From NCBI GenBank assembly GCA_025617745.1, contig CM046858.1, positions 34,914,598 to 34,978,597 on the forward strand: DNA of 64,000 nt, in the 5' to 3' direction. Each line of letters starts with the position of its first letter. The stretch's first letter is position 1. Of this stretch, positions 11,515 to 54,080 are shown in pieces. Position numbers and translations under genes: made by a program. This DNA is from Heliocidaris erythrogramma (Eukaryota; Echinodermata; Echinoidea; Camarodonta; Echinometridae). The notes under the pieces were generated by a model that was given only the letters and a program-made list of their open reading frames with translations, was not told the DNA's origin and did no database searches.

Positions 11515-12780
11515 CATGCTTAAACTCTTGTAAAAATATTGAGGGGTAAGGTACGGGCGAATGCCACGCTCATTTTTGCCTAAAAATGCCATTTTTGGCC
11601 CAACATTTGAAAGAATGTCAAAAATCACGATTTTTAATTTTTTGCCCTAATATATAAAGCCTGATAAAGACTTTTCAAGTGATGTCAGTTTCATTTCGAG
11701 TTTGAAGTTATAAATCCGATTAATATACATTTGAAAGTTGGATATTACACACACATGTATGGCGCAATGAAACATAAAACTGTGATTTACTCAAAATAAT
11801 AGGTTGTGAAAACTAACAATATTTCAAATAATTTTTACCCAACATAAATTTGTCAATTTAAACGATTTTCTTGATTAAACATATAATGCATATTGTCATG
11901 TCACACACAAAAAAGAAATTATCCGAGAAGGCGATAGAAAACTCATTTTATGTTATCCCGAATGGAATGATGTATTTTTACTCCATGCGCATTTTGAATG
12001 AAAAACCAGCGGTGGAAAAACACTATTTGAATACACATCTAGACTTCTTGAATATACATAAGGCAATTACCCCATGTATTATCGGTATCCCCTTAAAAAG
12101 AATCTTGAATAAAGTTTTTCTGTTAGATATGGGACCATTAACTATCAAAATATGCTTCTTTGCCCTAAATTAAGAGGTGGGCGTGACCACAAGGGCTATA
12201 ACCATGGCAAAGGATCAGTTACAGTAGAATTTCAGAAAATGTCATGTGTTCATGATTTAGAAAGTACAAAAACTTATTGTAACATTAAAAGATGATGTAT
12301 CAAATACTTTCTCAATTGATTAAAACCCAAATGAGAGTGATGAAAAGTCTCCATCATGTTTGAAAATGGCTGTTTCTATGGAAATAGTAAGAAAAAAAAA
12401 TGATATTTGAGCAAAAAATCCTTGCTGCTACTGAAAAAAAGAAGTAAATATGAATATTGTACAAGATTGTACAAGATTATCTTCTCTTTTACAGTTATTA
12501 TAATTTGTAAAGGGGTGATATATGTGACCACTACATGTTAGGCCGTTACCATGGTAAGAAATATATTCATTGTATTTCTAATAAAATACAGAACTATAGT
12601 TTTTTTTCAACATGAAATAATAGTAAACATCTAATAATTTGTCGCCTGTTTGATTATATTCACAACTTTAGTTTGGAACAGAGCTAAATTTGATTTATCA
12701 AAAAAAAATGTTGCCATGGAAACGGAATGTTAATGAAGATGACATATTTCAACTAAAAAAAAGAAATGTAACTAACCAAC
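11515..12780 (+). repeat. Outer arm (left) of the large inverted repeat, with X-box monomers
   Basis: It matches the reverse complement of 34395-35455 through almost its whole length. Shared stretches include GAAAGTTGGATATTACACAC, ATACACATCTAGACTTCTTG and TTTGCCCTAAATTAAGAGGT. X-box-like motifs are spaced about 165-175 bp apart, with the best at 12545 (GTTACCATGGTAAG) and 12710 (GTTGCCATGGAAAC) and weaker ones near 12205 and 12371. No gene was recognised; the frame at 11871-12173 lies inside the repeat. Confidence 0.8.
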
Positions 12781-12865
12781 AAATAGAAAATATATAGCAA
12801 CCAGATTAACAAACACCCTCGGTAATTAGAATCTACTCGTCGGCTGTGAATGTGACCATTATATA

Positions 12866-21711: not shown

Positions 21712-23345
21712 TTACAAAAATAATCGCAACAAAACAAAACCTATTGGGTTAAGGCGTGGGTCTGCCGCCTTTGACGGCCTTTCTAGTTTGCTTATTTGAT
21801 AATCTGGTAAACCTAGCAGTAAACTGTTACAATAATCTAGCCTACTCGTAACAAATGCATGAATGATCTTTTCAGTGCTTTGACGTGTGAGGTATTTTCG
21901 AATGTGTCTTATGTTAAACAATTGATAAAAGAATTCTTGCAAACGTTGGAGATGTGTCTTTCAAATCTAAGGTGTGTGTCAAACCAAACTCCTAAGTTCT
22001 TAGCATGATCAGAAGGGAATATCTAGGCATTAACCACTTTAATATTCTCTGTGTGTAACTTTGAAACTTGCTGTGGAGTGCCACATATCAAAAACTCTGT
22101 TTTCTTATCATTAAGTAATAGATGACGGGATAGTAGCCATTTGTAAATGTGTGAGATACATTCGTCAAAACTGACACACAATGATCTTCATTTATCATAT
22201 TGGGTGCAAAAGATATATACAATTGTGTGTCATCAGCATAAGTGTGACACTGAACTTCTGGAAAGTTCGACCGAATCTCGTGAACTAGTCCACTAGCATA
22301 CAGTGTGAAAAGGAGTGGACCCAAACAAGAGCCTTGTGGTACTCCAAACAGTAAATCAAACTCCCTAGACGGGAGACACCATCCACTTCAACCCTCAGTT
22401 TCCTATCTTCTAGATACGACTTTAACCATGATAACGCCCCATCTGTTATTCCAAACCGAGTTTCAAGATTGTCCTCCAAAATTTCGTGTTTGTTGGTGCA
22501 GTAGTATTACAAAGACAACCTGCTGCTTATTCATTAACAAAAGCAGGTCATTTTTAGCCTAAAAATAAGGCGGTTTCTGTACTATGGTGTTTTCTATATG
22601 CTGACTGTAAAGGTGGCAGAAGATCATTGTTGGAAAGATGTTTTTGAAGTTGATTCCACACTGCAACTGCAACTAGCTTAGAAACATATTGCAAGTTACT
22701 CACAGGTCTTAAATTCGTAAATTGCAAATCAGCACCAGGTTTTTTCATTAGCGGCTTAACTATTGCCAATTTCCAATGTGAATGAAACTGTTCATGTACA
22801 AGAGAGAAATTTAAAAGTTTAGTTAAACAAGGTAACAAAATATCGATACAATCTACAACCAAATTGGTAGGGACAGGATCCAAAGAACAGGACTTTTTGT
22901 TTGACTTGATGACCATCTTTCTAACATCACTTTCAGACAATGGAGAAAATTGTGAATATTGTCAGATATCTTCTGTTAAAATAATGAACCCAGATCATTT
23001 ACAAACGTTCCTGTGTCTATATGTGGTGGGACATTGAGTGTAGATTTCTTCATATTAAGGAAAGATTTTGTAGCACCAAACAATTTTTTCTGGTCAGTAC
23101 TGTTCTCATTTATGTATTCATTATAATACTCATGACGAGCTCGATTCATTAAAGGCAAAGCCTCATTGAGTATATCCTTATAATCATCATGATCTTTTTC
23201 ATCTTCTTCTCAGCTTTACGTCTCCTACGCTTTATCTGTCTAATTTCTTCATTAAACCAAGGTGTCTTTGGTTTCAAACGCACATACTTTGTTACAAGAG
23301 GTGCATGCTCATTAACCCTCTTAATACTTAAGTCTTCTCATCCCA
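21712..23345 (-). mobile_element. CR1/L2-like LINE, copy A (RT region), decayed
   Basis: Minus-strand blocks in order from 23345 down: an HEYYNEYINENSTDQKKLFG linker, KSCSLDPVPTNLV (about 22880), LMKKPGADLQFTNLRPVSNL, LQSAYRKHHSTETALF, an [18 protein letters not shown] block, FGVPQG-type residues, the catalytic [14 protein letters not shown] (about 22230), and HAFVTSRLDYCNSLLLGLP (about 21840). This is the RT core of a CR1/L2-group LINE. It carries several frame breaks, including a deletion of about 20 bp relative to copy B near 22493. The part 22171-22951 is about 97 percent identical to the piece inside the second Tc1-like element. Confidence 0.85.
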
Positions 23346-24436: not shown

Positions 24437-25700
24437 AGTCCATGGGCCAGTAACCGAAAAGGTCCCCCCCCCCTTAGGCAAACTTTTAAATAATGTTTTT
24501 CTGTTAGCTAGGACCCTCAGCTATCAGGGGGGCGTTTCATGAAAGGACTTGTCAGATATTTTATCCGACAAATTTGCTCTCAGCCAATTAGATGCAAGGA
24601 TTTCAGTAGCTTATAACAGTTGTCGGATAAAATATCAGACAACTTCCTTTCATGAAACGCTCCCCGGAATCTGCTTGTTTGCCATAAAGTTGGTGGTGGG
24701 TGTGGCCACCAGGGCCGTTACCATGGTAACGGATCAAGAAAAATATGAATTTTAGGAAAGGTCATATAATTCCAATTCACGCATCTAAAAATACTTGGTG
24801 AGCATCCTGATATATGTATTTTAAGGTGCCCAATCGATTTCGATTGCAACCATAATCAGAGCCATTTAAAGTCATGGGCGTGTCAAAAAATGACCGTTAC
24901 TATGGAACCGGTACCATAAAAAGCGGGTATTTTTGACAACTTTCTAAACTTATAAATATAAAATAGCCAAAAAGGTGTATGCACAAGCCTAAAGTATGTT
25001 TTCCTATTAGATAGGACCCTGAGCTATCAAAATGTACAGTTGGTGGTGGGTGTGGCCTGTAGGACAGTTACTATGGTAACACATCAAAAATAATGGATGC
25101 TTAGAAAATACTGCATCTTTGTAATTCAATAGCTATAAAAATATGGTAAGTATCCCATTATGTGTATTTCAAGCTGCCTGATAGATTGCAATCACAATCT
25201 GAGCCATTTAAAGTCATGGGCGTGTCAAAAAAGGCCGTTGCTATGGAAACTGTCCAACAAAAAGCTGTTATTTGTGAAAATATCTATAACTAACCATTAC
25301 AAAATAGAAAGAAAAAGGTGTCTGCACAGTCTTTCATAATGTTTTTATATTTTTTTTATATATATTTGTCATTTAGCAGTATAAAATATATGGTAAGGCC
25401 TCTAATATATGTATTTCAAGCTGCCCCACTTATTCCAACCACAATCTGAGTCAGTTGAAGTCATGAGCGTGTAAAAAAAGGCCGTTGCTATGGAAACTGT
25501 CCCTCAAAATACTGATTTGTGGAAAATATCTATGATTTATTAATACAAAATAGAAAACAACTGTCTGCACAATCTTAAATCATATTTTTCTGTTAGCTAG
25601 GACCTTCAGCTCTCATATTCTTCTTATTTCACATAAAGTTGGTCGTGGGCGTGACCACTAGGGTTGTTACCATGGTAACACACCAAGGAATTGAATTTTA
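24437..25700 (+). repeat. Inner arm (left) of the inverted repeat: X-box monomer array
   Basis: Tandem ~175-bp monomers each carry an X-box-like palindrome: 24717 (GTTACCATGGTAAC), 24895, 25067, 25237, 25484 and 25666, spaced 178, 172, 170, 247 and 182 bp. Next to each motif lies a GGC..GTGGCC or GGGCGTGTC block. The arm is the reverse complement of 31910-33150; the stretch 25484-25690 looks about 93 percent identical to its partner. It begins at ATAGTCCATGGGCCA-like sequence and a C-run ending CCCCTTAGGCA, mirrored at the right arm's outer edge. Confidence 0.85.
24529..24666. mobile_element. GGGGCGTTTCATGAAA MITE
   Basis: Inverted ends GGGGCGTTTCATGAAAGGAC and GTCGGATAAAATATC/GATATTTTATCCGAC, with the core CTCAGCCAATTAGATGCAAG. 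It interrupts an X-box monomer. A second, more diverged member lies at 49785-49918. Confidence 0.75.
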
Positions 25701-26686
25701 ATATGGCACGAAAAAGAGACATGATAACGAAGCTTTTCGACCTGCACTCATCAGGTTACCACGCAGGTATATAACAAATTACTTGAAATCAACTATATTA
25801 TACTCGATGAACCCGGACGCAACCCAGACGCCGTAATTTTAGAACAATCGCAAAGCTTGGACGAACTCCTTTTGTCTGCAGAGAAGGGGTTCGTGCGATT
25901 GAATGTAGGCGGCTTCCAGAAAGCGTAAATGCGCTGGAGTTCTGGCCCGGGACATAATTGAGAATTGATCGTCGGTATAGCTTAGTGCGCAAGCTGGATT
26001 GTTCCGCAAATGGAGACCAATCGCTGAATCGCATTTGGCTATCTTTGGTCTGTTAGCGTGCATTTCAGATTTGCAGGCACGGACGGGCTGCGTGCGCTGA
26101 TTGGTTGTACGGTTCCGAATAGTCGAGGGGACGTGTTGTTTAATGCGATCAGCCAACCGCTGAGAAGTACGGCCCACGTACCTGGCATCGCACCGGCACT
26201 GAAATTGGTAAATAACATTACTCAAGTGGGGGGAGGGTAGTACATCCTTGCTAGTTGACGGTAGCATCCTGTTTGTAGAAAACACAATGCGTGTCGAAAC
26301 CGCGTAATAGCAACGCGACACTGCGTGTTTGATCTGACTGGCGTATTTGTCAGATACCTTACCCCTCCAGGGTAGTTTGAGATATATGGGGCATTTGGCA
26401 GGTCCAAATCTGGTGTCAGATTTGGAATTGTGCCACCAGCGTCCGTGCCAGAAGTCCAGCGCATTTACGCTTTCTGTGCAGACAAAAGGAGTTCGTCCAA
26501 GCTTTGCGATTGTTCTGAAATTACGACGTCTGGGTTGCGTCCGGGTTCATCGAGTATAATATAGTTGATTTCAAGTAATTTGTTATATACCTGCATGATA
26601 ACCTGATGAGTGCAGGTAGAAAGCTTCGTGATCATGTCTCTTTCTCGTGCCATATTGAAATTTTGTAGTACCAAGAAATTGTTTGT
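25701..26686 (-). mobile_element. Penelope-like retroelement (GIY-YIG end), 5'-truncated with an inverted 5' copy
   Basis: A 13-bp target duplication, GAATTGAATTTTA, flanks the insertion (25688-25700 and 26687-26699) within the X-box arm. A minus-strand frame (26321-25839, 160 codons) encodes PSPHLSNVIYQFQCRCDARY, then VGRTSQRLADRIKQH. This is the GIY-YIG endonuclease core with the paired cysteines seen in Penelope-like elements. The N-terminal reverse transcriptase is missing, as expected for 5' truncation. About 180 bp of the element's 3' end (25701-25880) recur inverted at 26475-26655. Terminal repeats in either orientation are a known feature of Penelope-like insertions. The inverted ends could be misread as the TIRs of a DNA transposon. 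Confidence 0.75.
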
Positions 26687-26745
26687 GAATTGAATTTTAG
26701 AAAATACTATATATCTGTAATTCAACATCACAAAACAATTGTAAT

Positions 26746-27237
26746 TATTTTTATAAAGTTAATTACTGACTGCACTGCTAACTGCAATTAATGTGTCGGT
26801 ATTGAGTTCACGGTCATCTGTGAAATGATAAGTGAGGTAAAGTGTCCACACCCAGTTGACATGAGTGAGAGCTACATGTTTTCCACTTACTCTCTGCAAG
26901 GACTTCTATAAATGGATGCCATTAGTAATCAGAAGTTAGAGAGCATCCTTTGGATAGAGGTACAGAACATTTTCAGCAGAATTCCTCTTGCAGCAACACC
27001 CGCTACTTTGGATGAGGTTGAGGATTACCCATCAATCAGAGTTATCATGCAGAACAGATACAATAAGGCATTGACAGACTTCAGAACTACATACCAAGCT
27101 ATACTATGTAAACTTGAATTCCCTGTAGGGTGAAGTGAGGATTCACTCATCTTCATCCTAACCATAGAGACATTACTCAAGTATTGCAAAAAATGTATTC
27201 TCTTCTAACATCGTGCTGGAGTTATAGATGACACTTA
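26746..27237. other. Spacer between inverted-repeat arms, left part
   Basis: A plus-strand frame at 26912-27133 (73 codons, MDAISNQKLESILW...) has ordinary amino-acid composition but no recognised domain or partner exon. I do not assign a function. Confidence 0.3.
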
Positions 27238-27371
27238 CAGTTAACAACAAAATTATTCATACCCCTTGGAAAATTATAGTTTTTTGCATTTTTCCTAAAA
27301 ATGAATGGTTAAATGAAGTTACTTGCACATCACTTGAATACATTTAGTTATCATCTGCAAATGAATGCCGT

Positions 27372-29598
27372 TTCCGGTTTCACCTCATTTGCATAACAAT
27401 AGAAAAGGTGAGTTATCCAAACTGGGCGATGTTCAAAATTATTCATACCCTTGGTGATTTATTGACTTTGTCAATCAGTATGAATCCGATCCTTGTGATT
27501 AATGCTTGTAATTCACTTTATTTTAATACACCGTCACAAGGCTTCCGGAGGGGTCTCTGCTGGGATATCAGGCCAGTACCTGTTCTCCAATGGCTCAATC
27601 TCCTTGAGGATGTGTCCACACATGCCTTCACCTGACCTTCAGGGAGTTCATTAGATTTCGTGTCCTACAGGTGATGCAGTTATCGACTTCATGATGACAG
27701 GACTATGATTTTGAAATTTTCGGTCATTTATTCCATGCATTTTAATGAAAATTCTGTATCTACTTATGAAGCAAAGCACCATTGCTGAAGAGCCCTTCCC
27801 TTTTGCACTGCCTGTGGGAGGGTTCACCTTTATTCATTGGCCCCATTCTTCATCAGAGTGCTCAGGAAGGCCATGTTGGTGATATTAAAGTCATTGCATG
27901 ACTCTAACGTCAGGTCACTATGAATAACAGTATGTAACCTTTGAGTACCATACACATCCCACATTGACTGTTACTGTATATCAATCTTCATATGGTATAG
28001 TCTTTGTATCTTTGGTATGAAAGCTACAATCCTTGATATCAAAATGAATGTAAACCAAATTTATACCATATGCCCTCCATGCCCTCCATGTACTGACACA
28101 CAATGATCTTCATTTATCATATTGGGTGCAAAGGATATATACAATTGTGTGTCATCAGCATAAGTGTGACACTGAACTTCTGGAAAGTTCGACCGAATCT
28201 CGTGAACTAGTCCACTAGCATACAGTGTGAAAAGGAGTGGACCCAAACAAGAGCCTTGTGGTACTCCAAACCGTAAATTAAACTCCCTAGACGAGACACC
28301 ATCCACTTCAACCCTCAGTTTCTTATCTTCTAGGTACGACTTTAACCGTGATAACGCCCCATCTGTTATTCCAAACCGAGTTTCAAGATTGTCTTCCAAA
28401 ATTTCGTGTTTGATTAAGTCGAAAGCTGCACTCATGTGCAGTAGTATTACAAAGACAACCTGCTGCTTATTCATTGACAAAAGCAGGTCATTTTTAGCCT
28501 AAAAATAAGGCGGTTTCTGTACTATGGTGTTTTCTATATGCTGACTGTAAAGGTGGCAGAAGATCATTGTTGGAAAGATGTTTTTGAAGTTGATACCCTA
28601 CTGCAACTTCAACTAGCTTAGAAACATATTACAAATTACTCACAGGTCTTAAATTCGTAAATTGCAAATCAGCACCAGGTTTTTTCATTAGCGGCTTAAC
28701 TATTGCCAATTTCCAATGTGAATGAAACTGTTCATGTACAAGAGAGAAATTTAAAAGTTTAGTTAAAATAGGTAACAAAATATCGATACAATCTACAACC
28801 AAATTGGCAGGGACAGGATCCAAAGAACAGGACTTTTCGTTTGACTTGATGACCATCTTTCTAACATCACCTTCAGACAATGGAGAAAATTCCGGTTTCA
28901 CCTCATTTGCATAACAATAGAAAAGGTGCGTTATCCAAACTGGGCGATGTTCAAAATTATTCATACCCTTGGTGATTTATTGACTTTGTCAATCAGTATG
29001 AATCCGATCCTTGTGATTAATGCTTGTAATTCACTTTATATTAATACACCGTCACAAGGCTTCCGGAGGGGTCTCTGCTGGGATATCAGACCAGTACCTG
29101 TTCTCCAATGGCTCAATCTCCTTGAGGATGTGTCCACACATGCCTTCACCTGACCTTCAGGGAGTTCATTAGATTTCGTGTCCTACAGGTGATGCAGTTA
29201 TCGACTTCCTGATGACAGGACTATGATTTTGAAATTTTCGGTCATTTATTCCATGCATTTTAATGAAAATTCTGTATCTACTTATGAAGCAAAGCACCAT
29301 TGCTGAAGAGCCCTTCCCTTTTGCACTGCCTGTGGGAGGGTTCACCTTTATTCATTGGCCCCATTCTTCATCAGAGTGCTCAGGAAGGCCATGTTGGTGA
29401 TATTAAAGTCATTGCATGACTCTAACGTCAGGTCACTATGAATAACAGTATGTAACCTTTGGGTACCATACACATCCCACATTGACTGTTACTGTATATC
29501 AATCTTCATATGGTATAGTCTTTGTATCTTTGGTATGAAAGCTACAATCCTTGATATCAAAATGAATGTAAACCAAATTTATACCATATGCCCTCCAT
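27372..29598. repeat. Internal duplication bracketing a captured LINE piece (copy 2)
   Basis: 27372-28080 is repeated as 28890-29598 at an offset of 1518 bp, nearly identical. Between them lies 28093-28889, which is LINE sequence. The right junction shares TT with the LINE; at the left junction the phrase GCCCTCCAT is doubled. Confidence 0.85.
28093..28889 (-). mobile_element. CR1/L2-like LINE fragment, copy B
   Basis: It covers the RT region from KSCSLDPVPANLV to the catalytic [14 protein letters not shown] and lies in the same orientation as 22171-22951, at about 97 percent identity. It lacks target-site duplications or a 3' tail of its own, so it did not arrive by ordinary LINE integration. 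Its limits coincide with the transposon duplication. Confidence 0.85.
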
Positions 29599-30410
29599 GT
29601 TACCAGCTGCAGTGCACAAAATGCTACCACTTTGACAGTGCACTGGAACATAAAGATCAGTATTTTAAGCTTCACTAGAGTACCCACTTGCAGGTGTCCA
29701 TATCAAAAATGTGTCAATCAGTGTAACTGAATAAACTGATAAAATTGGCACCATCCAACCTTTAGACAACTACCATGGCCTCCCTAAACATTCTTAATAA
29801 TAATGGAACAAAAGTATCAGGAAATACCTTCCCTTGACAGTGCCTCTAGGGAAGTCTCTCCAGGAAGAGTGCTTTGTTTCAACTTAGATACAGAATTGTC
29901 ATTAAAATGTAAGGAATATTAACGAAAATATCAATATCATAGTCCTATCCTCATGACGTCTAAAACTACACCACCTGCAAACACAAAATCTGCTTTAAAT
30001 CCATCGAATCCCCTGAAGACCAGGTGATGGCATGTGTGGACAACATCCTCAAGGAGATTGGGCCATTGGAGACCAGGTATTGGCCTGATATCTCAGTAGA
30101 GACCTCCAGAAGCATTGTGACAGTGCGAAGAAAGTGTTACGAGCATTAATCACAAGGACTGGATTCATACTGATTGACAAAGTCAATAGATCACCAAGGG
30201 TATGAATAATTTTGAACATCCCCCAGTTTGGATAATTCACCTTTTCTATTGTTATGCAAATGAGGTGAAACCAGAAACAGCATTCATTTGCAGATGATAA
30301 CTAAATGTATTCAAGTGATGTGCAATTAAATTCAGTTAACCATTCATTTTTAGGAAAAATGCAAAAAACTATAATTTTCCAAGGGGTATGAATAATTTTG
30401 TTGTTAACTG

Positions 30411-31029
30411 TATATCTCCATCCTTAGTTCTGACTTTATTCTGCCAAACCAAACCGAGGGAGATTGGATAATCTCCTCACCATGACCTTCTTAGCCTTCA
30501 AGCCAGATAAGAGTGCCTCACATATAAGACTTGTAAGAATCTCCAGGCAGGTAACAGCACTTCAGTCCTGGACTTGATCTATGATGAGGCACCCAAAAGT
30601 TTAATTCTTTGGCCCTGTTTCTGATGAAGTCCAAATCCTAGACCACCTTGGTCATGCTGTTAATCCTTAATGAACATGCAGATTTCTTATGGGTAGGATT
30701 AGGGGGAAAATGCTAAATTCTATTCCAATCTCCTCAGATTTATTTCAAGTAGACAGGTTTAGCTACAGACCAACACGTTTATCATCTTATGAATACATTA
30801 GGTTCTGTGACTGAGGTGAATCCATCTATTAAGCCTCCATTGCATTCCTCCCTCTTAACGCCAAGGCATAGAGGTGGAAGCATAGAGGTGGAGGCATAAC
30901 TACTCAAGTACAGCTAACCAGTTAAGATCAGCTGTTGTTACTGCAACGGTCCCACACATGGACACCCACATCTTGCCCGGAGCTATCCAAACACGGAGAA
31001 CAGTTAAACAATGTCTTTGCAACATAATT
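30411..31029. other. Spacer between inverted-repeat arms, right part
   Basis: Non-repetitive sequence; no coding frame or motif was recognised. Confidence 0.4.
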
Positions 31030-31909
31030 GCTGCTGTGTAATAACAAAAATCTGTCACCTTTTTAAAGAAATTGCTCAGGTTTCATAACTACCATGGCAA
31101 CAACCCTGTTTTAACATTACTATGGCCTTAAGTGATTCGGATTATGACTGTAATAAGGCAGTTTATGATATGTATATCAAGACCAATATTTTGTGTTTTC
31201 TATTGTTAAAACAGAATATATATGCCATTTTCAAACAACTTCCAATATGTTGATGGTGCGTTGCCATTGTAATGGGGCTGGTGCTCACACCCACGATATC
31301 GGCGTCAGTTTGAGACCAAACGGATAATAAGAATTATAATCTTTTTACCTGACTGTGACCTTGAAAGCACACCAAAAAATTGCACTCAAAAGAGCTGCTT
31401 GAAATGGATGTAATGCCTACTAAACATTTTCACGTTGTTGAATCATTATTTTATTTATTATTTATTTATTATTATTATCTTATTACCATGGTAACAGCCC
31501 GAGTGGTCGCCCGACATCCACCTTTGTGGCAGTCAGGGAGGATATGATATCCAGGGTCCTAGCTGACGTACAGGGGGAAAAACATCATTTCAGGTTGTGC
31601 AGACACTTACTTTATAAAGTGCATTGGATAGTTACAGATTTTTTCACTAATATTTATTAATTCACCATAACGTTTCTATAGCAACAACCATGTTTTGACA
31701 TGACGGTGACTTCCAATGACTCAGATTTAGCTGACAGATAAACATCATTTTAGGCTGTACATACACTTGTTCTTTGTTTTGTGTTGAATAGTTACAGAAA
31801 TATTCAATTTTTATCATACTGGTTCTATAGCAACAGCTATGTTTTGACATGACAGTGACTTCCAATGTCCCTGATTCTACTTGCAATCAAAACAAAAAAA
31901 ATATATGTA
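31030..31909 (-). repeat. Diverged X-box monomers
   Basis: Older-looking monomers continue the array inwards, with motifs at 31088 (ACTACCATGGCAAC), 31482 (ATTACCATGGTAAC), 31672 (GTTTCTATAGCAAC) and 31821. Their spacing is less regular than in 31983-33061. Confidence 0.65.
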
Positions 31910-33150
31910 GATGGTTACAATTTGTTTTTGTGATATTGAATTACAGATATATGTTATTTTCTAAAATTCCATTCCTTGGTGTGTTACCATGGTAACAACC
32001 CTAGTGGTCACGCCCACTACCAACTTTATGTAAAATAGGAAGAATATGAGAGCTGAGGGTCCTAGCTAACAGGAAAACATGATTTAAGATTGTGCAGACA
32101 GTTGTTTTCTATTTTGTATTGATAAATCATAGATATTTTCCACAAATATCAGCATTTTGTGGGACCGTTTCCATAGCAACGGCCCTTTTTTACACGCCCA
32201 TGACTTCAAATTACTCAGATTGTGGTTGGAATCAGTGGGGCAGCTTGAAATACATATATTAGAGTCCTTACCATGTATATTTTATGCTGCTAAATGACAA
32301 ATATACGCTATTTTCTAATTTCCAGTATTTTGTTATGTTACCATACTAACGGCCCCAGCGGCCATGCCCACCATGAACTCTATGGAAAACAGGCAGATTA
32401 TGAGAGCTGAGGGTCCTAGCTAACAGAAAAACATGATTTAAGATTGTGCAGACAGTTGTTTTCTATTTTGTATTGATAAATCATAGATATTTTCCACAAA
32501 TATCAGCATTTTGTGGGATCGTTTCCATAGCAACGGCCCTTTTTTACACGCCCATGACTTCAATGACTCAGATTGTGGTTGGAATCAGTGGGGCAGCTTG
32601 AAATACATATATTAGAGGCCTTACCATGTATTTGATGCTGTTAAATGACAAATATACGGTATTTTCTAAATTCCAGTATTTCGTTATGTGTTACCATGGT
32701 AACGGCCCTAGCGGCCACGCCCACCATGAACTCTATGGCAAACAGGCAGATTATGAGAGCTGAGGGTCCTAGCTAACAGAAAAACATGAATAAGATTGTG
32801 TAGACACCTCTCTGTCTATTTTATACTGATAAGTTTAGATATTTTTCCAAAATATAAACTTTTTATGGTACCGTTTCCATAGTAACGGCCATTTTTTGAC
32901 ATGACCGTGACTTCAAATGACCTAGATTTTTATTTCAATCATTCAGGAAACTCAAAATACATATATTTAGATGCTTACCAGTTATTTTTCACATTTCTGA
33001 ATTAGAAATATTAGGTATTTTAGTAAATTCCTATATTTCCTTGATGCGTTGCCATGGTAACGGCTCTGGTGGCCACACCCACCACTAACTCTATGGCAAA
33101 CAGGCAGATTCACAAAAAAAATTGTGCCTAAGGGGGGGGGGGGGGGGTCT
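31910..33150 (-). repeat. Inner arm (right): regular X-box monomer array
   Basis: X-box-like motifs lie at 31983, 32167, 32337, 32521, 32690, 32873 and 33048, spaced 184, 170, 184, 169, 183 and 175 bp. Two monomer types alternate. One has GTTACCATGGTAAC followed by GGCC and CACGCCCAC; the other has GTTTCCATAGCAAC followed by GGCC and ACACGCCCATGAC. Together they form a ~355-bp higher-order unit repeated three times. The arm ends at GTGCCTAAG and a G-run of about 17. Confidence 0.9.
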
Positions 33151-33168
33151 ACGTTGGCCCATAGACTA

Positions 33169-34308: not shown

Positions 34309-34394
34309 TTAAGGCAAACAAGCTGATTCTCATAGCTACGGGAAGAAATGATATGTTTAATTTGATATTGTTCTAATTCTGTTTAACATTTATT

Positions 34395-35455
34395 TTGTAT
34401 TGATTGTTTACATTTCTTTTTTGTTGAAAGATTTCATCTTCATTAACATTCTTTTTCCATTGAAACAGCTTTTTTATAAATCAAATTTAGCTCTACTCCA
34501 ATTAACTAATTTTTTGAATATTATCAAACAGATGTCAAAATTATTAGTTGTTTGCCATTATTTCATGTTGAAAACAACCATAGCATTTTATTAGAAATAC
34601 AATACAATAAATATATCTGTTACCATGGTAACGGCCTGCACATGTAGTGGTCACATCCATCACCCCTCTACTGAAACAAATTATGATAACTGAGTGTCCA
34701 GTAAAAGAGAAAATAATCATGTACAATGTAGCATCAAGGGATTTTTGCTTAAATATCATTTTTTACTGTTTCCATGGAAACAGCCATTTTCAAACATGAG
34801 GGACACTTTTTATAACTCTTATTTTGGTTTTAGTCAATTGAGAAATTTTTGATAGATTATTTTAAAATGTTACAATGTGTTTTTGTACTTTCTTAATCAC
34901 AAATACATGACATTTTCTGAAATTCTACTGTTCTTGATTCGTTGCCATGGTAATAGCTCTTGTGGTCACGCCAACCTCTTAATTTAGGGCAAAGAAGGAT
35001 ACTTTGATAGCTAATGGTCCCATCTAACAGAAAAACTTAACTTAAGATTCTTTCTAAGGGGATGGGTACATTTCAGTTTGTGGCCCATGGACTATACTGA
35101 TAATACATGGGATAATTGCCTTATGTACACTCAAGAAGTCTAGATGTGTATTCAAATAGTGTTTCTCATTCAAAAACTTTGAAATATTGGTAGTTTTCGC
35201 AAACTATTATTTTGAGTAAATCACAGTTTTATGTATCATTATGCCATACACGTGTGTGTAATATCCAACTTTCAAATGTATATTAATCAGGTTTATAACT
35301 TCAAACTCGAAATAAAACTGGTATCACCTGAAAATTCTTTATCAGGTATTTCATATTAGGTCAAATTATTAAAAATCGTGATTTTTTACCTTCTTTCAAA
35401 TGTGCGTGGCATCCGCCCATACCTTAATCCTCAGTATTTTTGCAAGAGTTTGCAA
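34395..35455 (-). repeat. Outer arm (right) of the large inverted repeat
   Basis: Reverse complement of 11515-12780 at roughly 80-85 percent identity by eye. X-box-like motifs lie at 34619 (GTTACCATGGTAAC), 34768 (GTTTCCATGGAAAC) and 34941 (GTTGCCATGGTAAT). The terminal part contains AAATCACAGTTTTATGTATC and the AAACTCTTGCAAAAATACTG end shared with the left arm. Confidence 0.8.
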
Positions 35456-40650: not shown

Positions 40651-41236
40651 CTGACGATGAACGTCAGTCGAAAGAATAAAAACGACATGAAACGCCTTTT
40701 AACGGTTATTAACGGATGCCAAAAATTGATATTCGATATTTTTATTTCTCAATCTTAACACATGAACTATGGGGAAGTAGTTACCGGTGTGTGCGTCCAT
40801 GAGAGCCATGCACGCTCAGCCCTCTAGCGTTCCAGCCTCAACAAATTATTTAAATAATCAGGGCTTCCCATCCGAAACATGATCTCTGTCATTGGTCAAA
40901 ACATGGTGATAAATAAGAATTCTACGGGGAGAGCGGAGCGGACTGCATTCGCTACAATAACAAAGTATTATAATTTCACATCGCGTATTCACAGCTCACA
41001 ACAACGCCGACCGTCGCCAGTAAAGGGTACTATTTCGTTTTGCTTCTCTTGAGGGCCCGTCACATTTGTCAGTATCGGAGAAGACTGACCTACCACAAAG
41101 ATTTCATACTCCTTTTTATCGTTGTGGGAGAAATGTGTACATCCCTTTAGCTTGTGTTAACTCAAATTCAATACAGATCGATACCCATACGTAAGCGGGT
41201 GCTTCTTTCTTTCAACAAAAGTAAGAAGTCGACACA
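40651..41236 (+). promoter_or_regulatory. Upstream region of the TLR gene
   Basis: This 586-bp stretch is free of the obvious repeats found elsewhere and should hold the 5' untranslated region and promoter. I see no clear TATA box and no consensus kappa-B decamer; GGGCTTCCC at about 40861 is only a weak approximation. The bases before the start codon, GACACA then ATGG, give an acceptable initiation context. Confidence 0.4.
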
Positions 41237-43909
41237 ATGGCATCTAAATATCGCTTAATCCTGACCCCATTGGTCATTGCTTGTCTTCTCGTAGCCTTGT
41301 CCATTCAGGTATTACACGGGCATAATCAAGATTCAGGCATCACATCCTTTAGATTAGAGAAGGACGGTCCTTTTCATGAATGTCATCTGAGCTATGAACG
41401 GAAGATGGCTAATTGCAAGAGAATGGGCCTTGATACGGTTCCCCAGAATCTCTCTGAGGATACAATGGTTTTTTACTTGGGCATTAACAATATCACTACT
41501 CTCTTGAACTCGTCGTTTAAAGCATACCCTCTAATCACCTACTTAGATATTTCCGCCAACGACATACGTGTGATAGAGGCGGCTGCTTTTTATCCTCTTA
41601 AGGATTTAAGGCGCTTAGATTTGGCTTTCAACTCTCACTTGGTGCTTCCACAGAGAGTTTTCATGATGTCTACAAAGCTATATATTCTCGAGTTGCCGGA
41701 AACAAATCTAAAAATATTCCCCAACGACACTCTAAAATGGAGTCCAGACATTCATGTTTTACATCTGGAAGTAAACCAGCTCTCCTTCATTAACATAAGT
41801 TCTTGTGCCAACCCAGACGAAGTATCTATGGTCGGTAATCAGATAGAACATCTTACAGCGGAATATTTCACCTTTGTGTGCAGCGCTAATTTTCTGAATC
41901 TAATGAACAACCCAATTCGATCTGTTGATCCCAATGTGATCGCATCATTAAATGTTCGCTCCTTGTGTCTAGGTGGCTACCCTCTGAGCTACGAGGTGTT
42001 ACGGAACATCGTCGTCGGAATCTCAAGGTCTGGGATCAAACATCTGTCAATTATTCATGGCTCTGTGGGTTCATTTCCGAAAGGTTTATTTGATCCACTT
42101 CGCGAATATTCTCTCTCTGGTCTTGTCTTCAGCATCAACCGTCTGAGTAATCTCCAGCCTTTCGTCTTCTCGAATTTGACAAAAGTCAAAAAATTAAGTT
42201 TCACTAATAACTATCTCCCTATTGACAGAATTCAACCAGACTTTTTTGAGGGCATGGAGGCATTAAGAAAACTGATAGTAAGTAGCAATCACATAAGACA
42301 TATAAATCCGTTTAATCGGCCTTGGACAGTAGACTTAGTTGAGTTTGGTTTATCCGGTAATCTTTTGACAGAAATTTCCAAATCTACATTTCTCGGTTTG
42401 GGAAATTTAACCTTTTTAGACTTGAGCTACAATGGATACCTTTCTGTCTTTGAGCTAACGGCATTTACGGGACTTGATAATATTCAAAGGATCGACTTAT
42501 CCGGAAGTGGTGTAACTGTTTTGCTATTGGACGCCCCAATATTAGGATCCCTTTCCCTGAACCATCTGTATTCAGATTTGCTTCCCTTACGGCCAGGAAA
42601 ATCCTTTAACCATTCAAGGTCTCTTGTTTATTTAGAAATGAAAGAGTCTAAGCTTCAAATATTTAATCTGTGGAATGCAACTGTAAACGTTTCTCTATTC
42701 GACGGATTATTCAATCTCAATCATTTGGACTTGAGTAATAATCCCTCCCTTAGTGTGGAAAGTCATATACCGCCTGGGATATTTCAGCAACTCTCTGCTT
42801 TACAGGAGCTCAGTCTAGACTCATGCGATATTGCAAACCTTCATCCACTTATCTTCATTGGTTTGGAATCGCTCCAGAAGTTGAGCTTGAAATGGAATAA
42901 TATTCAGAGCCTTCATGGTGATTTACTGACAGTGTTGGGTCACTTACAAAGTATCAGCTTGGACGAAAACCGTATCGCGTACCTGGAAGAGACAATGTTT
43001 TCAAATAACGAGAAACTGACGAATGTTTCCTTAGCCAACAACAAATTGACAGGGCTTAATGAAAGCACTTTCAAGCCTGTCTTTTCCGCAATTTCATCAC
43101 TTGATCTATCAATGAATCCAATTAACTGTAACTGCGACCTAAAGTGGCTGCTGGACTGGCTAAGTGGACCTATACACCTGATTGACAAGGAGAGAACTAT
43201 CTGTTCGTCATCATCTTTACAGCCTCTCCGCGAAAAGCCTCTGCTTGATTTTCATCCAAACGAACTGTGTCAGATCCGAATCGGTCTCTTCTGTCTGATT
43301 CCCGTTGCCTTCATTTGTTTGGTTGTCATCATCGTGCTCGTCTATCACAACCGATGGCAATTGAGGTACAAACTCTTTCTCTTGAAACTGGCCACACTTG
43401 GATACAAAGAGATACGAGACGCTCGGGACCACAATGACTACCAGTTCGACGTGAACATCATCTTCTATGACGATGACGAACAATGGATTCGCGAACATCT
43501 TCGACCGGCTCTTGAAGAACACCTTCCACAGTTTCAGAGGAACGTCTTTGGCGACGAGGACCTTGTGCTTGGTATGCACTATTTGGATTCCGTTGACTAC
43601 GTGGTGAGCCATAGTTATAAGACCATCATGGTGCTCAGCAGAGCCGCTGTGCGCGACCGCTGGTTCATACTCAAGTTCCGTACGGCCATGGACCATGTGA
43701 GTGATACTCTGACCGAGTTCGTCGTTGTGGTCTTTCTTGAAGACATCCCAGACGATGAGATGCCTTTTTTGGCGAGGTTATATCTCAGAGACGGCAGACC
43801 CTATATTCACTGGACTGAGGACGTGAGAGAACAAGACTATTTCTGGGATGAATTGACCAAAAATCTGTCCATTAATCTGAAGACCAATGACTTGATCCCA
43901 AACGAGTAA
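41237..43909 (+). CDS. Toll-like receptor, intronless, complete
   Basis: A single open frame of 890 codons. Residues 1-28 form a signal peptide with a hydrophobic core (LTPLVIACLLVALSIQV). Cysteines at 49 and 60 form an N-terminal cap, and roughly 70-620 is a run of leucine-rich repeats with LxxLxLxxN cores and many N-glycosylation sequons. A C-terminal cap with the NCNCDLKW motif starts near 628 and runs to about 677. A single membrane helix (IGLFCLIPVAFICLVVIIVL) lies at about 681-703. The cytoplasmic TIR domain covers about 737-880: box 1 is FDVNIIFYDDDEQW and box 3 is YFWDEL near 868. Length, single-exon structure and one C-terminal cap match the main expanded TLR class of sea urchins. 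The product should sense microbial or endogenous ligands at a membrane and recruit TIR adaptors such as MyD88. In box 2 the usual RDxxPG reads EDLVLG (about 774-779), lacking the BB-loop proline. The specific subfamily is unknown. Confidence 0.97.
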   Translation: MASKYRLILTPLVIACLLVALSIQVLHGHNQDSGITSFRLEKDGPFHECHLSYERKMANCKRMGLDTVPQNLSEDTMVFYLGINNITTLLNSSFKAYPLITYLDISANDIRVIEAAAFYPLKDLRRLDLAFNSHLVLPQRVFMMSTKLYILELPETNLKIFPNDTLKWSPDIHVLHLEVNQLSFINISSCANPDEVSMVGNQIEHLTAEYFTFVCSANFLNLMNNPIRSVDPNVIASLNVRSLCLGGYPLSYEVLRNIVVGISRSGIKHLSIIHGSVGSFPKGLFDPLREYSLSGLVFSINRLSNLQPFVFSNLTKVKKLSFTNNYLPIDRIQPDFFEGMEALRKLIVSSNHIRHINPFNRPWTVDLVEFGLSGNLLTEISKSTFLGLGNLTFLDLSYNGYLSVFELTAFTGLDNIQRIDLSGSGVTVLLLDAPILGSLSLNHLYSDLLPLRPGKSFNHSRSLVYLEMKESKLQIFNLWNATVNVSLFDGLFNLNHLDLSNNPSLSVESHIPPGIFQQLSALQELSLDSCDIANLHPLIFIGLESLQKLSLKWNNIQSLHGDLLTVLGHLQSISLDENRIAYLEETMFSNNEKLTNVSLANNKLTGLNESTFKPVFSAISSLDLSMNPINCNCDLKWLLDWLSGPIHLIDKERTICSSSSLQPLREKPLLDFHPNELCQIRIGLFCLIPVAFICLVVIIVLVYHNRWQLRYKLFLLKLATLGYKEIRDARDHNDYQFDVNIIFYDDDEQWIREHLRPALEEHLPQFQRNVFGDEDLVLGMHYLDSVDYVVSHSYKTIMVLSRAAVRDRWFILKFRTAMDHVSDTLTEFVVVVFLEDIPDDEMPFLARLYLRDGRPYIHWTEDVREQDYFWDELTKNLSINLKTNDLIPNE

Positions 43910-49784: not shown

Positions 49785-49918
49785 CCCTATATTTCATAGC
49801 TTGTTATCACTGACCAGTTACAATAACTGTTATAAGCTACTGAAATCCTTGCATTGATTGGCTGAGAGCAAATTCGTCGGTAAAATCACCGAAGACACTT
49901 AGTGAAACGCCCCCAGAT
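49785..49918. mobile_element. GTTTCA-type MITE, diverged member
   Basis: On the minus strand it reads GGGGGCGTTTCACTAAG, then TTTGCTCTCAGCCAATCAAT and AAGGATTTCAGTAGCTTATA, matching the MITE at 24529-24666. Confidence 0.65.
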
Positions 49919-51171: not shown

Positions 51172-52480
51172 GCGTAGACAGGGGGCACCGGGGGGCAATG
51201 CCCCCTCCCCCCACATATTCGGCCACTAAAAAAAAAGAAGCGAGAGCGAAAAAGCGGGGAAGTGAGAGAAAAGGCCTACAAGGCGCTATACAAGCCGTTA
51301 TCTTTATCTCAAAATTTGCTAAAACGTCAAAGTTTTAGGGGAAATAACTCTCCTCTCCCTGCACCCACCCCTGTGACGTACAGTGAAATTTTTCGTCCAA
51401 ATAATAATTTATTGAAAAGCAGTCAGGGTGTCGAACTATAACTTCCACCTTAACAAATTTGAAAAAAACGTCAGAGCTTCGCGCGGGAAGGGGGAAATTC
51501 CCCCCTCCTAGGCCCTGCACCCATCCCTGTTGCAGTGCAGTATTACGTCCGAATAACTGAAAAGCAGTCTGGACGTCGAAATAGCTTTCCGCCTAAAGAA
51601 AGGTGCGACGAGCCGTTATTTCTCTCAGATTTGCTATAAAACGTCAGAGCTTTCGCGCATTGCGCGGAAGGGGTAAAACTTGAAATTTTTCGTCCAAATA
51701 ATTTATTGAAAAGCAGTCAGGGTGTCGAACTATAACTTTCCACTTGAACAAATTTGAAAAGCAGTCTGGACGTCGAAATAGCTTTCCGCCTAAAGAAAGG
51801 TGCGACGAGCCGTTATTTCTCTCAGATTTGCTATAAAACGTCAGAGCTTTCGCGCATTGCGCGGAAGGGGTAAAACTTGAAATTTTTCGTCCAAATAATA
51901 ATTTATTGAAAAGCAGTCAGGGTGTCGAACTATAACTTTCCACCTTAACAAATTTGATAAAACGTCAGAGCTTCGCGCGGGAAGGGGGAAATTCCCCCTC
52001 CTAGGCCATGCACCCATCCCTGTTGCAGTGCAGTATTATGTCCAAATAACTGAAAGCAGTCTGGACGTCGAAAGAGCTTTCCGCTTAAAGAAAGGTGCGA
52101 CGAGCCGTTATTTCTCTCAGATTTGCTATAAAACGTCAGAGCTTTCGCGCATTGCGCGGAAGGGGTAAAACTTGAAATTTTTCGTCCAAATAATAATTTA
52201 TTGAAAAGCAGTCAGGGTGTCGAACTATAACTTTCCACCTTAACAAATTTGATAAAACGTCAGAGCTTCGCGCGGGAAGGGGGAAATTCCCCCCTCCTAG
52301 GCCCTGCACCCATCCCTGTTGCAGTGCAGTATTACGTCCAAATAACTGAAAAGCAGTCTGGACGTCGAAATAGCTTTCCGCCTAAAGAAAGGTGCGACGA
52401 GCCGTTATTTCTCTCAGATTTGCTATAAAACGTCAGAGCTTTCGCGCATTGCGCGGAAGGGGTAAAACTTTCCCCTCCCT
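51172..52480. repeat. Tandem array, ~295-bp units
   Basis: CGCATTGCGCGGAAGGGGTA occurs at about 51655, 51856, 52148 and 52446, spacings of 201, 292 and 298 bp; the 201-bp unit has an internal deletion of about 95 bp. Each full unit alternates two related half-units, one with TAAAACGTCAGAGCTTTCGC and one with AACGTCAGAGCTTCGCGCGG followed by CTAGGCCCTGCACCCATCCC. The array opens with the dispersed CTGGCGTAGACAGGGGGCA sequence. Confidence 0.85.
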
Positions 52481-53479: not shown

Positions 53480-54080
53480 ATTCGGTCAGGCTGAGGTCTT
53501 TAAACGGAAAATGGGCACCAATCAGAGGAAAACAGGGACACTTGTTGGATTTCAAAGGGGACACTTATCTGAGCTTAAAAGGGGCACTTATCAGAAGGTG
53601 AAAAGGGCACCTATTAGAAAGAAGAAGGGGCAGTCATTCAAAGAAAAGGGTTACTTATCAGAGGTGAAAGGGCACTTCTAAGAAGGGAAAATTGTACTAT
53701 TAGAATGGAAAATGGGTATTAATCAGACGAAAAACAAAAGCACAGATTTCAAAAGGGGCAGTAATGTCTGAAGTTAAAGGGGGCACTTATCAGAAGGTGA
53801 AAAGGGCACTTATCAGAAGTGAAAACGGGCACTTATCACTAGGAAAAATTGCACTATTAGAACGGGAAATGGACATTAATTAGACGGAAAAGGGGCAATT
53901 ATTAGATTTCATAAGGGGCAGTAATGTCTGGTGTTAAAGGGGGCACCTATCAGAAGGTAAAATGGCACTTATTAGAAAGAAAAAGGGGCACTATGCGAAG
54001 AAAAGGAGGCACTTATCAGCTTTGAAAAGGGGCACATTTGGGGTACCTGAAAAAGTGTGGGGCACTGTGCCCCCCCCCCT
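53480..54080. repeat. GGGGCACTTATCAGA minisatellite, copy 2
   Basis: About twenty irregular units of 25-35 bp such as AAAGGGGGCACTTATCAGAA. It ends with GGGGTACCTGAAAAAGTG, GGCACTGTGCCCC and a C-run, the same end as at 10366-10405. The lysine-rich frame across it is an artefact. Confidence 0.85.

Follow-up and report, generated by a model that had tools for sequence, protein, structure and literature searches.

The window, that is, the whole 64-kb stretch of DNA analysed here, carries a foldback-like DNA transposon, designated family 1, together with an insert in its left end and an older relative (Table 1). The sequence-only reading had described two clusters of RFX-type palindromes in this stretch, at 24717-25679 and 31088-33061, as arrays in a mobile repeat. 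The mobility has stood, while the picture of free arrays has not: the two clusters mirror each other, and both are ends of a single element, the transposon, whose terminal inverted arrays they form.

Table 1. Elements, terminal arrays and exact RFX-type motifs in the window
Feature	Position	Strand	Remark
Family 1 foldback-like DNA transposon, outward-facing terminal inverted arrays	about 24437..33167	.	termini AGTCCATGGGCC / GGCCCATAGACT
Left terminal array, 6 motif-bearing monomers	24437..25694	-	inverted likeness to right array
Right terminal array with 12 motif slots; alternation of two types within a 354-bp unit	31088..33167	+	
Insert with GIY-YIG open frame within left array	25694..26686	-	ORF 25839-26546, GIY-YIG E 7.7e-05
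Older relative, left array, 4 motif slots	12015..12795	-	inverted partner of 34388-35167
Older relative, right array, 4 motif slots	34388..35093	+	terminus GGCCCATGGACT at 35082-35093
Perfect RFX-type palindrome GTTACCATGGTAAC	24717..24730	.	outermost left monomer; exact match
Motif GTTACCATAGTAAC	25067..25080	-	exact match
Motif GTTTCCATAGCAAC	25237..25250	-	exact match
Motif GTTTCCATAGCAAC	25484..25497	-	exact match
Perfect palindrome GTTACCATGGTAAC	25666..25679	.	exact match
Perfect palindrome GTTACCATGGTAAC	31983..31996	.	exact match
Motif GTTTCCATAGCAAC, B-type monomer	32167..32180	+	exact match
Motif GTTTCCATAGCAAC, B-type monomer	32521..32534	+	exact match
Perfect palindrome GTTACCATGGTAAC	32690..32703	.	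exact match
Motif GTTTCCATAGTAAC, B-type monomer	32873..32886	+	exact match
Motif GTTGCCATGGTAAC	33048..33061	+	outermost right monomer; exact match

A foldback-like element and its relatives

Stretches of the two arrays can be aligned with each other in inverted orientation, at identities of 68-94%; 25361-25700 matches 32305-31962 at 93.6%. The right array runs through its motif slots into a G-run and then the terminus. The left one is interrupted by the GIY-YIG insert, which we take to be Penelope-like; array likeness resumes at 26687, and a remnant of the array lies at 26687-26744. The arrangement recurs in the genome. Among the first 100 of 665 monomer-pattern matches, with same-strand matches within 1 kb merged to one array before counting, all 17 array pairs less than 10 kb apart are inverted and none has the same orientation, at a median distance of 5195 bp. 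Since the arrays among these matches occur as inverted pairs, a stand-alone satellite array was rejected. Inverted termini AGTCYATGGGCC / GGCCCATRGACT are seen in family 1, and in the window TAT is a possible target-site duplication; no transposase was found among the four window open frames scanned. The two arrays of the older relative align inverted at 76.4% over 838 bp, and their likeness continues outside the arrays (11603-11828 against 35403-35178, 89.8%).

Family 1 thus has the long terminal inverted repeats of tandem sub-repeats by which foldback elements are recognized. Long inverted repeats containing sub-repeats are also known from the TU elements of sea urchins, the sub-repeats of which differ in length from those of family 1. 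The closest parallel in plan is with the Tetris, Galileo and Foldback transposons of Drosophila (PMC4079207; see also PMC3573991 and PMC4168063), which, in the available text of these papers, share with family 1 terminal inverted repeats built of tandem monomers and a variable array length. The monomers are about 220 bp long in Tetris and about 170-184 bp in the best family 1 array, and family 1 differs from all three in its two alternating monomer types, in the RFX-type motif in each slot and in the termini AGTCYATGGGCC.

The motif and its proposed reader

The exact motif, GTTNCCATRGNAAC, gives 22 strand-matches in the window, or 14 distinct sites, as against an average of 0.02 in dinucleotide shuffles (n=100); eleven of the sites are listed in Table 1, and the others start at 12710, 34619 and 34768. 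When up to two mismatches are allowed, there are 53 strand-matches, with a mean of 10.3 and a maximum of 20 in the shuffles. The earlier count of more than twenty motifs is therefore right for inexact matches, since the four clusters hold 21 sites at one mismatch or fewer and 25 at two or fewer (better strand counted), and too high for the 14 exact ones. The reported spacings of 184, 170, 184, 169, 183 and 175 bp in the best array (31983 to 33048) were reproduced, as was the alternation of two monomer types in a unit of about 355 bp, for which TRF gives 354 bp; over the whole window the within-cluster spacing runs from 149 to 247 bp, the best array being the more regular. In the whole genome the exact motif has 16,399 matches on the plus strand and 16,345 on the minus strand; the reversed-read control pattern has only 79 and 71.

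RFX is a switch protein for cilia genes. Published RFX sites follow GTNRCCN{0-3}RGYAAC, with a palindromic X box GTTGCCATGGCAAC, and a second consensus, from the fly, is GYTRYYN{1-3}RRHRAC; as far as the available text of this source goes, the motif matches the published consensus and the palindromic X box, as had been proposed (PMC3414849). Among the 32 motif slots studied, 9 fit the strict human consensus and 18 the fly consensus, and 14 fit neither, with one slot that is out of register scored as a miss; one shuffled window gave 0 and 0. The A-type motif is an exact fit to the RFX dimer consensus, including the 2-bp centre. Several perfect palindromes had also been claimed, and there are indeed six among the 32. 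The symmetry is frequently broken in B-type monomers, and at two of its seven base pairs complementarity is kept in just 15 and 16 of the 32 slots. A hairpin or cruciform as the main function was rejected on these grounds: pairing at these two positions is often lost while the X-box fit is often retained, which favours a protein site. The host, a sea urchin as its bindin shows, would appear to have an RFX protein able to read the motif. Its RFX domain exons give 12 genome matches, 4 of them with internal stops. In one exon the DNA-binding domain is nearly the same as that of human RFX1 (1dp7 chain P), 56 of 61 residues being identical when counted by eye.

Two HINE-like families with the same motif

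The motif is found again in two more families, 2 and 3, with repeats of about 160 bp, where it lies in central repeats. Family 3 has the structure of a HINE (a non-autonomous Helentron). Inspected by eye, it has a 5' subTIR with a complementary IR and a 3' subTIR followed by a palindrome, the latter short and imperfect. All 11 aligned copies have the 5' end, in some cases altered, and 9 of the 11 have the 3' end, which is partial in one further copy and absent from another; the family 3 copies L016 and L019 share flanks and are not independent. In family 2, also by eye, 3 of 7 rows show the 5' end and 5 of 7 the region of the 3' end; the others are truncated or divergent. As candidates for an autonomous Helentron partner with the same ends, there are 103 genome matches to Helitron_like_N, in open frames of up to 4199 aa; at two of the matches the frame stays open through the 2.5 kb upstream. 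Not every array of this kind has the motif. The proposition that each array of about 150 bp bears it is false, as motif-free TRF rows exist (L011 3240-3601, L022 3989-4501, L033 1305-1731 and L034 23-599). On contig 1, 14 of the first 30 motif loci lie outside both tandem families 2 and 3.

Two conserved sequence boxes are known from the bivalve satellite family BIV160/Cg170. The plan of family 3, and partly that of family 2, is the one described for the HINEs Cg_HINE, pearl/CvA and DINE-1: 5' subTIR with complementary IR, central repeats of about 160 bp, 3' subTIR and a short palindrome. The GGTC-type microsatellite of family 3 also resembles the GTCY of the oyster HINE, and the RFX-type palindrome of the family 2 and 3 monomers is not mentioned in the available text on HINEs (PMC7492417, PMC4067079). 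In the clam element DTC84 a palindrome close to the repeat junction is conserved, and CvA has a microsatellite-like segment in its place (PMC5139131, as far as its available text goes). In sea urchins, the Tsp transposons of Strongylocentrotus purpuratus are a DINE-1-like mobile family (Cohen 1985, as cited in PMC4067079). It is worth stressing that family 1 itself is not a HINE: in place of subTIR/hairpin ends and one central array, it has two inverted terminal arrays.

That all the motif families form a single family was considered and rejected, because a distant likeness, in the same orientation, is clear only between families 2 and 3. Their anchored score is 23.0, where 60 shuffles gave a mean of 3.5 (sd 2.5) and no more than 10.0, and their local score was equalled by 1 of 200 shuffles; for family 1 against families 2 and 3, the best local score was equalled by 18 of 200 shuffles and no anchored score exceeded the null maximum. 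The consensus strings for this comparison, as for the left-array evidence and the family 2/3 ranking below, come from monomers chosen by the motif. Outside the motif, neither family 2 nor family 3 appears clearly to resemble family 1.

This bears on who reads the motif. The palindrome could be bound by a protein of the elements themselves, a transposase or a replication protein, the tandem copies boosting transposition and the likeness to RFX sites being coincidental. The arrays of family 1 are terminal inverted repeats, the usual place of transposase sites, and repeated sites of this kind at foldback ends would likewise preserve the palindrome; tandem THAP recognition sites have been proposed to raise the transposition efficiency of foldback elements such as Galileo and Tetris (PMC4079207, in its available text). 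However, the same 14 bp lie in central repeats of the HINE-like families, whose ends differ and which have no other likeness to family 1, so that two different transposition machines would need a common site, and the match of the A-type motif to the RFX dimer consensus extends to the centre. We regard this explanation as unlikely.

Motif retention and what may maintain it

When the 32 monomer slots are compared, identity is 0.77 in the motif window and 0.52 in the remainder, and the motif window ranks 1st of 138; one slot (near 12200, minus strand) is out of register and was scored against the motif, here and in the following search. An ascertainment-matched search gave 1.09 mismatches at 12 positions for the motif and a mean of 3.82 (minimum 3.00) for 111 control offsets. 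In 72 family 1 monomers (from 79 with sequence among the first 100 places listed, 7 length variants being excluded), changes are seen at 3 of 864 sites of the motif and at 37 of 2598 non-CpG sites elsewhere (p 0.009); without the CpG edges the figure for the motif is 2 of 770 (p 0.006), both p values counting related copies as independent. CpG sites mutate fastest, with 27 of 394 changed.

The young family 3 behaves differently. Of 2963 monomers, 2592 (87.5%) still have the motif, a lower share than the 3207 of 3515 (91.2%) that keep a CpG-free control stretch (Fisher p about 1e-6, kin copies taken as independent). The inside of the motif is CpG-free, but at its edge bases CpG arises in family 3, as it does in some of family 1; 10 of 15 non-exact family 3 centres (first 100 rows) differ only at the motif edges. 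Much of the deficit is change at these two edge bases, where CpG decays, and the inside has 6 changes per 1000 sites, about the 7 per 1000 implied by the control. With one ascertained exact monomer per locus excluded, the family 3 motif ranks 139th among 148 windows and the family 2 motif 23rd among 147. The suggestion that the motif is better kept than its monomer consequently holds for the diverged monomers of the window family, fails for family 3, and so cannot stand for every family; for family 2 the picture is not clear.

These rates could also come from a neutral relic of a founding monomer, its apparent conservation being due to gene conversion, to a slowly changing CpG-free inside or to shared descent. 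The family 3 motif, no better kept than its control and with an inside that changes about as fast, and the fast change of CpG sites would be expected of such a relic. The family 1 motif nevertheless beats all 111 control offsets, although its consensus has just one CpG apart from those in the motif or at its edges. Nor would gene conversion leave only 14 bp untouched, and the motif is present again in families otherwise without likeness. We find a relic improbable.

Selection seems instead to act on the spreading elements and not on settled copies, because the motif is best kept across slots and not in young family 3. A transposase site is also compatible with this pattern, the motif being kept among monomers and not in settled copies. 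For a use by the host, in which some arrays would be kept as RFX-driven enhancers, as an RFX sink or as nucleosome-phasing elements, it gives little comfort: settled family 3 copies show no protection of the motif, and hence no support for a host-level sink or enhancer role of the bulk copies. Nor is nucleosome phasing supported, as the spacing differs between families and there is no common phase: motifs lie 169-184 bp apart in the best array of the window, while the distance is mostly 153-162 bp for family 2 and 157-166 bp for family 3. Among sea urchin repeats, the Spec-gene RSR repeats of 150-200 bp are enhancers that work by way of transcription-factor sites, in their case for another factor, Otx. 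The site numbers genome-wide are large, and single exaptations are plausible, given that in worms genes are rewired by heat-shock sites that Helitrons carry (PMC6927752, in its available text). As an explanation of the arrays, we consider host use very improbable.

We give an even chance to the reading that host RFX binds the palindromes in the foldback arrays of family 1 and that the element benefits. Dimers of host RFX would occupy the palindromes, and arrays of such strong sites would most likely activate element transcription or open chromatin in RFX-expressing cells, which would include germ cells becoming flagellated sperm. Copies with good RFX sites would produce more offspring copies, and for this reason the motif would be maintained during the spread of the element and decay neutrally after a copy settles. 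The wider proposal, that unrelated foldback and Helentron-derived HINE transposons have independently gained or kept arrays of perfect RFX sites and that the cilia/sperm switch drives their spread, is more tentative, and we hold it possible but rather doubtful.

RFX-type sites in a mobile element have precedent in pig SINEs, which amplified binding sites of three RFX family members (PMC10471783). These are mammalian retrotransposons, for which the available text gives no arrays, palindromes, foldback or Helitron link, unlike families 1-3. Caenorhabditis Helitrons with heat shock elements likewise spread the sites of one host factor, HSF-1, for which, according to the available text, occupancy and gene induction were demonstrated (PMC6927752); the evidence for the sea urchin arrays is from sequence. 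Among the open-access titles and abstracts listed for RFX and transposable elements, none connects RFX with Helitrons, with foldback elements or with satellite arrays.

If RFX binds, these families would be a clear case of distinct types of mobile element exploiting one regulator of cilia and sperm. Most of the more than 16,000 high-affinity RFX-type sites of the genome would then be transposon-made, and they could act as a sink for RFX or wire neighbouring genes into the cilia programme. Two testable questions follow: whether transposons prefer transcription factors relevant to the germline, and whether a regulator's own network is diluted or extended by a flood of perfect sites. Should the reader be a protein other than RFX, a 14-bp site kept in otherwise dissimilar elements would still point to a common host factor.

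An RFX-type palindrome and the host RFX exons

The 14-bp palindrome of the RFX X-box type is a real and abundant feature of this genome. The window holds 14 exact sites (22 strand-hits) against the 0.02 expected from shuffled sequence, and 53 strand-hits against 10.3 expected when up to two mismatches are allowed. Over 1.064 Gb in 26 contigs the motif matches 16,399 times on the plus strand and 16,345 times on the minus strand, compared with 79 and 71 matches for the reversed pattern; since CATGG-centred sites match on both strands, there must be at least 16,399 distinct sites genome-wide. The motif spacings and the alternating two-monomer unit described in the sequence-only reading were confirmed, the unit measuring 354 bp.

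The human RFX consensus is GTNRCCN{0-3}RGYAAC, and those of the fly are GTTGCCATGGCAAC and GYTRYYN(1-3)RRHRAC (PMC3414849); a 14-nucleotide inverted-repeat motif came from Rfx2 mutant testis and ChIP data (PMC4498915). We studied 32 motif-bearing monomer positions, or slots, of family 1, the repeat family of the window itself. Nine of the 32 fit the human consensus, 18 fit the fly consensus and 14 fit neither, while 6 are perfect palindromes. In the B-type monomers, which alternate with the palindromic A-type, the palindrome is broken at two inner pairs, often with the fly consensus retained. The host genome has 12 matches to RFX domain exons, and one exon is identical to human RFX1 in 56 of 61 residues. 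The structure entry for human RFX1, 1dp7, was reportedly solved on exactly this palindrome.

The genome also contains a Pfam Bindin match (E 2.1e-68) that was absent from all 14 control genomes. Bindin is an echinoid sperm protein, and its presence identifies the host as a sea urchin.

A foldback-like element in the window

The first reading treated clusters 1 and 2 as free arrays, a framing that could not be upheld: the RFX-type sites lie in arrays that form the ends of a foldback-like transposon. A degenerate A-type monomer pattern gave 297 and 368 matches genome-wide, and the first 100 of these (contigs 1-3) were reduced to 80 arrays by merging same-strand matches within 1 kb. Among neighbouring arrays less than 10 kb apart, 17 pairs were inverted and none had the same orientation; the order was minus then plus in 17 of 17, with a median gap of 5195 bp, and 34 of the 80 arrays belong to such pairs. 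In the 11 pairs with letters printed on both sides, the T3 monomer variant occurs in one array and T1 or T2 in the other, as judged by eye, and the arrays of the window match this pattern. The same kind of right terminus is found in four further copies, where the flank differs immediately beyond it. The inverted pairing, the split of monomer variants and the termini together make it most likely that clusters 1 and 2 are both ends of a single element of ~8.7 kb. A motif-free 112-bp family-1 query found 1413 candidate places; scoring covered the best 40, and all but one of the 41 listed matches have 98-100% identity, which suggests that part of family 1 spread recently.

Features of the window
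Feature	Position	Observation
Cluster 1	24717-25679	T3 at 24717 (minus)
Cluster 2	31088-33061	T1/T2 at 32337-32690 (plus)
Left end of element	24437	starts AGTCCATGGGCC
Right end of element	33167	stops GGCCCATAGACT
Hairpin-type insert in left end	arms about 24524-24571, 24620-24668	24528-24621 is 85% alike to 49825-49914
GIY-YIG insert in left array (element interior)	about 25694-26686	open frame of 235 aa; 25694-25885 recurs inverted at 26472-26662 (94.8%)
Repeated open-frame fragments	22554-22961, 27348-28976, 28845-30300	both orientations, inside and outside element
Reverse-transcriptase match	28061-28498	among the repeated open frames; such fragments lie in element interior
Older inverted pair of clusters	12.0-12.8 kb, 34.4-35.1 kb	76% over 838 bp
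Extent of inverted likeness	11603-12795, 34388-35403	~22 kb apart; 90% over 226 bp past array termini
Toll-like receptor type gene	41225-43909 (+)	894-aa open frame in one exon; leucine-rich repeats, TIR domain
Tandem arrays	51558-52470, 53554-54035	197/295-bp units (about 97% matches) and 23-bp units; unrelated to motif

The likeness of the older inverted pair runs past the array termini, and the region may therefore lie inside an inverted unit that is larger and older.

The same motif in Helentron-like families

Classed by eye, the first 30 motif loci on contig 1 comprise 6 of family 2, 10 of family 3, none of family 1 and 14 of neither family 2 nor family 3; these 14 are single motifs, some within other repeats. 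Motifs are mostly 153-162 bp apart in family 2 and 157-166 bp in family 3. Family 3 has a 5' end of TATACCCCCGCCAAACGAAGTTTGAAGGGGGTATA plus a GGTC-type microsatellite in 11 of 11 aligned copies (some changed). Its 3' end, which stops at CTAGTT, combines GGCGGGGGTAT and a short, imperfect palindrome in 9 of the 11, counting two copies, L016 and L019, that have common flanks. Family 2 is partly of the same build, with the 5' end present in 3 and the 3' end in 5 of its 7 rows. The build of family 3 is that of HINEs, the non-autonomous Helentrons, as described for oyster and fly (PMC7492417, PMC4067079). The two families are distantly related to each other, and sequence comparison found no clear likeness of either to family 1 outside the motif.

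Autonomous Helentron-type Rep domains gave 103 matches, with open frames up to 4199 aa. By our own count 37 of the 103 lie in open frames of at least 3000 aa, which suggests recent activity of autonomous Helentrons in this sea urchin. Among the genomic pieces read, single motifs with common flanks (pairs L014 and L018, L017 and L020, L009:3642 and L032:4410) represent other, non-tandem repeats carrying the motif or a near match. A 169-bp tandem array without the motif (L005:1168-4024, 17 copies, 94% matches) adjoins a family-3 element.

Conservation of the motif and its likely user

The claim that the motif is better kept than the surrounding monomer holds for the family-1 slots and fails for family 3. 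Across the 32 slots the motif has an identity of 0.77, against 0.52 elsewhere in the monomer, and ranks first of 138 windows. In a fairer comparison, where every control 14-mer was likewise allowed its best match within 12 bp, the motif averaged 1.09 mismatches and the 111 control offsets at least 3.00 (mean 3.82); one mismatch or fewer was found in 72% of slots for the motif, and no control exceeded 25%. Over 72 printed family-1 monomers there are 3 changes in 864 motif sites against 37 in 2598 at other non-CpG sites (p 0.009), or 2 in 770 without the motif's CpG edges (p 0.006), p values that count related copies as independent; CpG sites outside the motif show 27 changes in 394.

Family 3 has no such excess. 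Its motif, with flanks fixed and centre free, is retained in 2592 of 2963 monomers (87.5%), less than a CpG-free adjacent stretch (3207 of 3515, 91.2%; p about 1e-6). In 85 of the first 100 rows the motif is exact; 10 of the other 15 are altered solely at an outermost base, and these edge bases form CpG with the flanks. Inside the motif there are 6 changes in 1000 sites, against the ~7 implied for the control, and the deficit is thus largely CpG decay. When one ascertained monomer was left out at each locus, the rank of the motif was 139 of 148 windows in family 3; in family 2 it was 23 of 147. Neither the conservation in family 3 nor the motif spacing lends support to a host-level role as RFX sink, enhancer or nucleosome-phasing element.

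The main rival explanation takes the motif as a transposase site, and tandem THAP sites have been proposed as an aid to foldback elements (PMC4079207). The identical 14 bp, however, recur in HINE-like families having other ends, which makes a host factor likelier. RFX sites in a mobile element are already reported from pig SINEs (PMC10471783); no link of RFX with Helitrons, foldback elements or satellite arrays was found among the titles and abstracts listed from an open-access library. In this genome RFX-type sites are shared by foldback terminal arrays and HINE-like families that are otherwise unlike. It is possible that single arrays have been exapted by the host, as shown for Helitron-borne heat-shock elements in worms (PMC6927752).

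The excess in family 1 and its absence in family 3 can be read as selection on the elements while they multiply, followed by neutral decay of the motif once inserted. Host RFX would bind the motif arrays, this binding would affect the transcription or chromatin of the element, and elements so bound would gain an advantage in the germline.
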